Source: a virus
DNA: 21,673 nt
Direction: 5' to 3' (one strand)
Virus record (IMG/VR): IMGVR_UViG_3300042356_000701
Span: 1-21,673 of that record
The first letter of the stretch is position 1. Each line of letters starts with the position of its first letter. The translations under genes and the position numbers were made by a program. The notes beneath the pieces are model-generated. The model was not told the origin of the DNA and did no database searches. It was given only the letters and a program-made list of their open reading frames with translations. This document shows positions 18,604-21,608 of the stretch, piece after piece.

Positions 18604-18882
18604 ATGTTTAAAAAGAAACAACACATCCCTCTTAACCTACGCCGTAGAGTTATTGAAAGGGACGGCAAATGGTGTGTCTATTGTGATGAAGACTTGTCCG
18701 ATAAAGAAATACACATGGATCATGTTATTGCTGAATCTAAAGGTGGAGAAACCACTTATAACAATCTTCAAGTAACTTGTAGAAAATGTAATCTTGCTAA
18801 GGGTACTTTAACTGAATCAGAATTTACTGAACAGTTAAGAACCAGAGCAATGAACATTTTAAATAGAATTGGAGCGGGATAG
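18604..18882 (+). CDS. HNH endonuclease, 92 aa
   Basis: Compact HNH nuclease. It has C24-x2-C27 (WCVYC) and C59-x2-C62 (CRKC), which form a structural zinc site, H37-M-D39-H40 with catalytic His40, N54 (NNLQ) and C62-N63-x2-K66, the classic order 'DH..p...GG....NL...C..CN..K'. It cuts DNA in a metal-dependent way. It lies on the strand opposite to the tRNA operons, between tRNA-Leu and tRNA-Gly, typical of a homing-type insertion. The last 12 bases and stop codon overlap the 3' end of tRNA-Gly on the other strand. The start is the ATG five bases after a late box; an upstream TTG is rejected. Confidence 0.9.
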   Translation: MFKKKQHIPLNLRRRVIERDGKWCVYCDEDLSDKEIHMDHVIAESKGGETTYNNLQVTCRKCNLAKGTLTESEFTEQLRTRAMNILNRIGAG

Positions 18883-20036: not shown

Positions 20037-20118
20037 AAAAAAGCATATTGAAACACACTAACATCCTCGGTATGTACTAAAGTTCAATGAACCGCTACGA
20101 CCAAATATCAATATGCTT
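20037..20118 (-). terminator. Intrinsic terminator of the structured RNA transcript
   Basis: On the - strand, AAGCATATTGA (20118-20108) pairs perfectly with TCAATATGCTT (20051-20041) and is followed by a T-run to 20037. The 56-nt loop is itself structured, so this is a terminal domain more than a simple hairpin. It ends the unit from the promoter at 21261. Confidence 0.65.
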
Positions 20119-20322
20119 CAATCTGCTCTGCATCCCCCGGCGGTAATTATAGAGTATCAAGATATGACGCTATCATACCCATCACACACTCCTTCCACCC
20201 GCTTCCCGACAGGGACCGTTCTCGCATTGCTAGCGGCCTTTGGGTTTAAAGACTACCACCCGTACTTGTCACAGTACTTCTCATCCTGCGGGTCACAGTA
20301 TCCGGAGACACCCGGAACGTTC
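20037..20322 (-). ncRNA. Structured RNA candidate, ~285 nt, in the tRNA operon
   Basis: This 302-bp gap (20021-20322) has no credible gene. It is clearly more GC-rich than the surroundings and, on the - strand, full of hairpins: ACCCG/CGGGT enclosing GTACT-GTGACA-AGTAC (20293-20258); GGCCG/CGGTC (20238-20214); CCC-TGTC-GGG (about 20213-20203); TATGA-TAGCG-TCATA (20178-20164); and the long 3' stem AAGCATATTGA/TCAATATGCTT followed by U6. It begins right after tRNA-Ser CCA and ends in a terminator. It does not show the tmRNA, RNase P or group I intron core sequences I know. A T4-like stable RNA or a new family is possible. Confidence 0.5.
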
Positions 20323-20414
20323 TGGTGGAGACGGTGAGATTCGAACTCACGGTACGTGTTACCACATACGACAGGTTAGCAACCTGCTGCCTTAGGCCAC
20401 TCGGCCACGTCTCC
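20323..20414 (-). tRNA. tRNA-Ser(GCT)
   Basis: Class II tRNA. Acceptor GGAGACG pairs with CGTCTCC; anticodon loop TTGCTAA with stem CAGG/CCTG, anticodon GCT; long variable arm (TCGTATGTGGTAACACGTAC); T-loop TTCGAAT; encoded CCA at 20325-20323. The discriminator is A rather than the G common in bacterial serine tRNAs. Confidence 0.92.
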
Positions 20415-20505: not shown

Positions 20506-21120
20506 TTAAATAATCAACTCAAAGTTATTTCGTTGAATATTTATTATATCTTGTTTTTGAACTACTAATAACTGTTCTGGGAATTGTCCCCACTTTGCTG
20601 TATCTCGTTCAGTTTTATATCCTTTGACTTCTACATATACCTTTTTTTCAGGTAAATAGAAATCAGGAAAATATGTTCTAGTGCCATTCCACTCATACGG
20701 AAATCCTTTTGTATTTCTAATACAAGGAATATTATTAGCAAGACACCATTTATAAAAATTAAGTTCCCAGTTCCCTTGAAACTTCATCCCATTAAAAATA
20801 ATCTGTTTTACTCTTCCTCTATTAGAAGATGAGTATGCTTCTGGATTATTTTCAACTGCTTGTTTCATACTTAATGACAGTTTGTTTTTGGATTCATCAG
20901 ACCAAACTCTATTACGATTTGAATTACGAATGATATCTCTACCTGTTTCCGTCATAGGAGTAGCAGTACCTTTAATAAACTGATTACTACCTTGTTTCCC
21001 TAACATCCCCATTGATGCTTTTTTAACTTTAGCATCAGGATTAGATTTACAATACAGTTCGTGTTGAGCCTTACTGTTGGGTGATTTTTTATCACGGTTA
21101 CAAAAATTACATTTTAACAT
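20506..21120 (-). CDS. PD-(D/E)xK homing-type endonuclease, 204 aa
   Basis: N-terminal zinc finger C4-x2-C7...H20-x3-C24 (CNFCNR...AQHELYC); a basic linker with a NUMOD-like helix (SDESKNKLSLSMKQA); then a nuclease core: E119 in GNWELNFYKW, F-P-D153 in TYFPDFYLP, and E164-V-K166 in VYVEVKGYKT. This is the PD-(D/E)xK order, as in Vsr-like enzymes and in free-standing homing endonucleases of T4-like phages. It probably moves itself by cutting phage genomes that lack it. It lies between tRNA-Leu and tRNA-Ile2. The start is five bases behind a late box, without a Shine-Dalgarno sequence. Confidence 0.85.
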   Translation of the reverse strand: MLKCNFCNRDKKSPNSKAQHELYCKSNPDAKVKKASMGMLGKQGSNQFIKGTATPMTETGRDIIRNSNRNRVWSDESKNKLSLSMKQAVENNPEAYSSSNRGRVKQIIFNGMKFQGNWELNFYKWCLANNIPCIRNTKGFPYEWNGTRTYFPDFYLPEKKVYVEVKGYKTERDTAKWGQFPEQLLVVQKQDIINIQRNNFELII

Positions 21121-21260: not shown

Positions 21261-21289
21261 ATTATATATCATACAATTATTGTAGTCAA
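21261..21289 (-). promoter_or_regulatory. Sigma70-type promoter for tRNA-Leu(TAA) and downstream genes
   Basis: TTGACT (21289-21284), 17-nt spacer, TATAAT (21266-21261). Transcription would begin near 21254, six bases before the tRNA, then run through the endonuclease, Ile2-like tRNA, Ser tRNA and structured RNA. Confidence 0.82.
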
Positions 21290-21308: not shown

Positions 21309-21383
21309 TGGCGGTCCCAGCGGGTAACGATCCCGCTCCTCATGCGTGACAGGCATGTATGCGTCCGTGAACACTTTGAGACC
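21309..21383 (-). tRNA. tRNA-Asp(GTC) with unusual T-loop
   Basis: Acceptor GGTCTCA pairs with TGGGACC; D-loop contains GG; anticodon stem CATGC/GCATG with loop CTGTCAC, anticodon GTC; discriminator G as in aspartate tRNAs; encoded CCA at 21311-21309. The T-loop reads ATCGTTA within GCGGG/CCCGC: bases 54 and 58 are A and T instead of T and A. Confidence 0.9.
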
Positions 21384-21547: not shown

Positions 21548-21608
21548 GAGTTACGGTTGCAAGACCTAGTGTCTCATTACTGAGAGAAGTATCAGGGCGA
21601 TGTAACTC
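21548..21608 (-). ncRNA. tRNA-like structured element without CCA
   Basis: On the - strand, GAGTTAC (21608-21602) pairs perfectly with GTAACTC (21554-21548), a 7-bp acceptor-like stem. Inside are TCTCA-GTAA-TGAGA (a GNRA-loop hairpin) and GGT-CTTGCA-ACC next to the 3' strand, where a T-arm would be. No CCA and no normal T-loop. Possibly a decayed tRNA or a stable small RNA. A further hairpin (21620-21648) lies beside it; the remaining bases to the window end hold no gene I can see. Confidence 0.4.

Follow-up and report, generated by a model that had tools for sequence, protein, structure and literature searches.

What does the GC-rich stretch of about 285 nt directly behind a tRNA-Ser gene encode in the viral DNA analysed here, a 21,673-nt fragment of a viral contig that we refer to as the window? 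An initial annotation, made from the sequence alone, had proposed a structured RNA at this site, and the proposal is borne out by evidence that is stronger than claimed, namely a conserved core, covariation and a fold specific to the minus strand.

The RNA locus and its conserved fold

The element lies on the minus strand and starts at position 20322, with 0 nt between it and the encoded CCA of tRNA-Ser(GCT) (20323..20414, minus strand; called by ARAGORN and Rfam), which ends at 20323, as the annotated tRNA CCA end had implied. The minus-strand fold of the 285 nt is better than that of shuffled sequences (z -3.25; 1 of 200 shuffles as good) and the plus-strand fold is not (z -0.28), in agreement with the annotated folding on one strand. 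The 285-nt stretch consists of two parts. The first is a conserved core of about 200 nt (nt 1-199, where nt i is window position 20323-i; 20124..20322, minus strand), which is defined by its homologues, by pair counts and by a match to our covariance model R1 (229 bits, E 2.3e-72), and which has a GC content of 0.52, compared with roughly 0.30-0.40 across most of the window, so that the elevated GC is also confirmed. The second part, about 85 nt long, is a terminator-like 3' hairpin (20037..20122, minus strand) with the arms AAGCATATTGA and TCAATATGCTT followed by six T. It is present in 14 distinct copies, 13 of which lie directly behind the core, and is confined to the clade of the window. 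Hence, while the 285-nt stretch is real, the conserved unit is the core. Similarly, the intrinsic terminator that had been annotated is seen as a hairpin followed by six T, but is not listed in a scan for consensus terminators with loops of up to 8 nt because its loop is long. The hairpin module is also found in locus L134 (4700-4780), where a core follows some 400-600 nt further downstream, and judging from this copy it may be a separate module.

The only open reading frame across the element encodes 74 amino acids on the opposite strand and is not conserved, in keeping with the annotated absence of a gene. Protein coding on either strand was rejected, as the antisense frame is open in just 27 of 86 homologues and the lengths of the homologues are spread evenly modulo 3. 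A sigma-70-like putative promoter, TTGACT-17-TATAAT, which matches the consensus at 11 of 12 positions and is predicted from this match, is located at 21261..21289 (minus strand), upstream of a unit comprising tRNA-Leu, an endonuclease gene, tRNA-Met, tRNA-Ser and the RNA.

Covariation was assessed on 107 distinct sequences and pairs were counted in 86 sequences, and both approaches give the same helices, P1 to P8. The covariance check across related phages that had been suggested thus reveals very strong covariation: double changes are seen in 27 of the 40 pairs, with a covariation score of 0.532 versus 0.183 for shuffled sequences. Standard pairs occupy 97.5% of the paired positions in the 86 sequences, compared with 35-53% when the partners are slid, a comparison that is somewhat favoured because some helices were chosen after seeing the covariation, although the margin is very large.

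The 5' half of the core is a series of hairpins, all on the minus strand: P1 (nt 7-22; 20301..20316) with double changes in all five pairs, P2 (nt 25-37; 20286..20298) in three of four, P3 (nt 47-60; 20263..20276) in all four and P4 (nt 70-87; 20236..20253) in four of five. In one group of members, P4 has about 30-60 additional nt. These are followed by P5 (nt 88-100; 20223..20235), which has a 7-nt loop and is 100% paired; its loop nucleotide 97 pairs with nt 104, and this pair changes from UA to CG in six sequences. The 3' part is enclosed by the long-range helix P6 (nt 107-112 with 186-191; 20132..20216, minus strand), which is 100% paired with double changes in four of six pairs. Inside P6, the pair counts place P7 (nt 121-124 with 180-183; 100% paired, double changes in one of four pairs) and P8 (nt 132-135 with 168-171; 98% paired, double changes in three of four). 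P8 often carries GUGUGAUG opposite YUGAUG, which some members lack and which could possibly form a tandem G-A or K-turn-like motif. Identical P8 loops are found on divergent cores in loci L004, L103 and L101 (alignment A1), making this a mosaic family and pointing either to chimeras in the assemblies or to recombination that is frequent among the phages.

The pair counts also support one pseudoknot, PK1, between the P2 loop ACCC (nt 30-33) and a GGGU behind P3 (nt 62-65; 20258-20261, minus strand), with 99.4% pairing and one doubly changed pair in the 86 sequences. The P4 loop AACC is a possible competitor for the same GGGU, since an A-to-G change is seen in both loops together with the U-to-C change. 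A compensatory change to GGUCC/GGACC in locus L194 favours PK1 over the pairing with the P4 loop. A T-box-like reading of the GGGUGG sequence was dropped because its first copy is bound in PK1. Taken together, we are close to certain that the stretch is a conserved structured RNA gene.

Distribution and genomic context

A 20-mer from the 5' part of the RNA was found in 21 viral stretches, and the neighbouring phosphoesterase gene led to 80 loci, about two dozen of which carry the element. A degenerate pattern of the core matched at least 120 viral stretches, and a profile search of all collected loci revealed at least about 145 viral loci with the element; among the matches listed, 144 are full-length cores, which represent 107 distinct sequences. 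The carriers include many large uncultured phages, mostly from lakes. R1 matched 21 of 23 viral records with E-values from 1e-30 to 1e-72, and 20 of these 21 large records contain exactly one copy. The remaining one, a 524-kb record, has two copies and is perhaps a joined assembly. No copy was found in any of the bacterial or archaeal genomes that we searched: in 84,980 prokaryote species, the degenerate pattern had 15 matches, none of them to the RNA, and 299 genomes from a single bacterial phylum were negative with R1. Of 33 members that had been identified independently of the pattern, it recovers 25, so that about a quarter of members would be missed. Nor did R1 match any of nine isolated phages that are tRNA-rich or large, T4 included, and blastn searches against isolated phages returned only matches of the tRNA-Ser type for the window element and nothing for two divergent members. 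Within the sequence examined, the RNA is missing in 15 of 26 loci of relatives with at least 15 tRNAs and is therefore not needed by all such phages.

Restriction to viruses, a single copy, a patchy occurrence among relatives and a varied context are what one would expect of accessory counter-defence genes, and the RNA might accordingly bind, as a decoy, those nucleases or effectors with which the host targets phage tRNAs or RNA. We consider this unlikely, as no known defence target can be recognised and the invariant nucleotides and fixed core resemble a conserved machine more than a fast-evolving decoy.

A tRNA on the same strand ends between -1 and +4 nt before the core in 91 loci, and at exactly 0 nt in 66 of them; in 50 loci, a tRNA begins 2-19 nt after the core. 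Such an exact start is reminiscent of the theta (HDV-like) ribozymes, which are located within 5 nt of tRNAs and have been proposed to trim tRNA trailers (PMC10879173), and the RNA could likewise be a ribozyme whose self-cleavage, at its own 5' end, would generate the 3' terminus of the tRNA before it. However, each genome has a single copy, often next to 10-30 tRNAs in an array, and some copies have no tRNA nearby. In addition, an HDV match in Rfam is absent, the first three nucleotides are variable and have no pairing partner, unlike P1 of HDV, and the core is far larger than self-cleavage would need, which together make a ribozyme very unlikely.

The upstream tRNA can be of the Tyr, Ser, Asp, Met, Arg, Glu, Asn, Cys, Pro or Ala type, and this variation means that no single tRNA is the partner of the RNA. 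In other loci, the RNA is located behind a protein gene or between other sequences. It lies at 66.8 kb in G020, about 94 kb away from the listed tRNAs at 160-172 kb, and at 51 kb in G008, where the listed tRNAs are at 270-279 kb, and it is present in G019, a 212-kb record and maybe a fragment, in which no tRNA was found. Thus, the annotated location behind tRNA-Ser holds for the window, but elsewhere the RNA is tied neither to this tRNA nor to a tRNA cluster. A perfect TTGACA-17-TATAAT, a putative promoter of the sigma-70 type, ends 17 nt before the RNA in locus L148, and a putative promoter with 11 of 12 consensus positions lies 32 nt before it in L198. Overall, three promoter matches (one overlapping a tRNA gene) were found in 104 upstream regions, compared with 0.05 expected. 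The variable tRNAs, the distant copies and the putative promoters of its own are easier to reconcile with an autonomous gene than with a tRNA trailer or a cis element. A leader that controls the tRNA operon or the following gene in cis, as an antiterminator or in a riboswitch-like manner, would fit with the predicted position of the RNA within transcripts and with loci such as L099, L118 and L121, in which it shortly precedes a ribosome-binding site and an ATG. This possibility seems quite remote to us, since the neighbours are inconstant on both sides, the RNA often occupies a middle or final position in an array, and a terminator-like hairpin follows it in the window.

In loci L028, L019, L041, L140 and L176, TATTTATA or TATTTATTA immediately precedes the RNA. 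On the other strand, TATTTATA reads TATAAATA, which is T4-late-promoter-like, and it forms the end of a recurring gap of about 199 nt behind tRNA-Ser.

Homing genes were found within the RNA gene itself. Three loci, L042, L193 and L194, share one arrangement: an upstream CCA or CCA-like end is joined directly to roughly 35-40 nt from the start of the RNA, which are followed by an open reading frame of the GIY-YIG type (L042 3509-4333; L193 1409-2211; L194 1559-2407), a label that we assigned by reading the motif, and then by a complete RNA. The open reading frame of L194 has a weak match to a PHROGs homing endonuclease and no match in Pfam. The P1 region of the complete RNA contains or overlaps the end of the open reading frame, and the 5' hairpin is altered. 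The simplest reading is that homing genes inserted into the RNA gene three times and brought a replacement 5' end, leaving an intact copy, as would be expected if the intact RNA is under selection. One might speculate that the RNA is instead a mobile intron-like or homing element and no functional RNA gene, given its varied insertion contexts and the endonucleases attached in these three loci. This is most improbable: there is one copy per genome, the contexts read show no interrupted gene around the RNA, an intron match in Rfam is absent, and the homing genes interrupt the RNA while a full copy remains.

The window also contains an HNH endonuclease gene (18604-18882, plus strand) and a second endonuclease-like gene (20506-21120, minus strand) between tRNAs. 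A tRNA-Asp (21309-21383, minus strand) was called by ARAGORN and missed by Rfam at E<=1, and its T-loop is AUCGUUA, not UUCRANY; a similar GATCGTTAC T-arm is found upstream of the RNA in L153. Finally, a second conserved small RNA of about 61-66 nt is located at 21548-21608 (minus strand) and is also found in L002, L005, L133, L138, L207 and others. It has a closing stem GAGTTAC/GTAACTC around ACATCGCC, a hairpin and ACTAGGTCYTGCAACCGT, is not matched by Rfam in the window at E<=1, and occurs in 24 distinct sequence contexts among the loci examined, often between tRNA-Asp and tRNA-Glu.

Relation to known RNAs

The Rfam search that had been suggested was run with Rfam 15 and gave no match beyond tRNAs and weak noise, mostly over tRNAs, for the window at E<=1, and none beyond tRNAs and weak noise for seven homologous loci at E<=10. 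RNase P RNA, tmRNA and group I/II introns, which the initial annotation had already set aside, were rejected, as we obtained nothing but sub-threshold matches of the tmRNA type and none of these at the window element; one in L133 (17.9 bits, gathering score 47) spans the element and a tRNA and is taken as noise. A literature search whose coverage lacks most subscription journals found no published description.

The RNA is a new family within a loose kind, the structured RNAs of phage tRNA islands, and it resembles GOLLD, ROOL, the T4 RNAs C and D and the theta ribozymes in setting, not in sequence or fold. GOLLD and ROOL are structured, pseudoknotted RNAs of phages and prophages with unknown function, often found near tRNA islands (PMC12286853). 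The tRNA-island setting is shared, with 91 loci abutting a tRNA here. In contrast, the RNA described here is about 200 nt long, compared with 659 nt for ROOL and often more than 800 nt for GOLLD, and it is not matched by any Rfam 15 covariance model (window at E<=1; seven loci at E<=10). Homo-oligomeric RNA cages are a further characteristic of GOLLD and ROOL.

RNA C and RNA D of T4, also referred to as species 1 and 2, have unknown functions (PMC9697503). Both are stable RNAs of small size that neighbour tRNAs in a large phage; RNA D starts 1 nt after tRNA-Arg, and segB, a GIY-YIG homing gene, is part of the cluster. They differ in size (119 and 139 nt), and RNA C ends in a T-arm-like hairpin that is not seen in the RNA described here. 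Homology was rejected, as R1 gave no significant match: used unfiltered on the T4 tRNA region, its best E-value is 0.54, and on the whole T4 genome nothing was found at E<=1. A GAACGTTCCG string shared with the T4 RNAs was given no weight because it is largely a palindrome. The annotated comparison with GOLLD and the T4 species therefore holds for the genomic setting and does not extend to a match in the region of the T4 RNAs. Theta ribozymes of gut phages are located directly at tRNA 3' ends (PMC10879173), a position shared by the RNA described here, which is single copy, sometimes far from tRNAs, and unmatched by their small HDV fold. The HDV double-pseudoknot fold was rejected, as there is no Rfam match and the covarying structure consists of P1 to P8 with a different pseudoknot.

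Possible role of the RNA

We propose, as the more probable reading, that the RNA is encoded by an independent single-copy gene, is co-transcribed with tRNAs, is released by tRNA-end processing and acts in trans. In most phages, it would be transcribed together with the tRNA array. Its 5' end would be formed by cleavage behind the CCA of the upstream tRNA, and its 3' end by a terminator or by RNase P cleavage at the next tRNA. The folded core, comprising P1 to P8 and the pseudoknot, could then act in trans, either as an RNA or as an RNA-protein particle. What the sequences show directly is the conserved structure, the single copy, the restriction to viruses, the 0-nt junctions and the relocation behind protein genes or a putative promoter of the RNA itself; transcription, processing and action in trans we infer.

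For the target, translation or the tRNA machinery would be a speculative guess that is based on the usual genomic setting, and the sequence has no feature that points specifically to translation. In a weak test for which a single 8-nt window of the invariant stretches qualified, we found no complementarity to E. coli 16S and 23S rRNA, and no homology to E. coli rRNA was detected. With regard to protein partners, a Ro/TROVE protein was found in none of 16 records, while one control genome was positive, and a Ro-associated Y RNA was rejected for this reason; an RNase P protein was likewise absent in 16 records, with a positive control. Conceivably, although we regard this as doubtful, the RNA represents a class of phage RNA machines that has not been described before, is fixed as a single copy in a broad group of large tRNA-rich phages and acts in trans during infection to remodel or guard the translation or tRNA system of the host.

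Little is known about the RNA content of the tRNA arrays of large phages beyond the tRNAs themselves. The RNA family described here is well defined, has a covariance model and more than 100 distinct members and is under strong structural constraint, so that it can be annotated at once, expressed and tested. The family raises the question of what phage tRNA islands do beyond supplying tRNAs, a question that has stood since the stable RNAs of T4 and GOLLD/ROOL.
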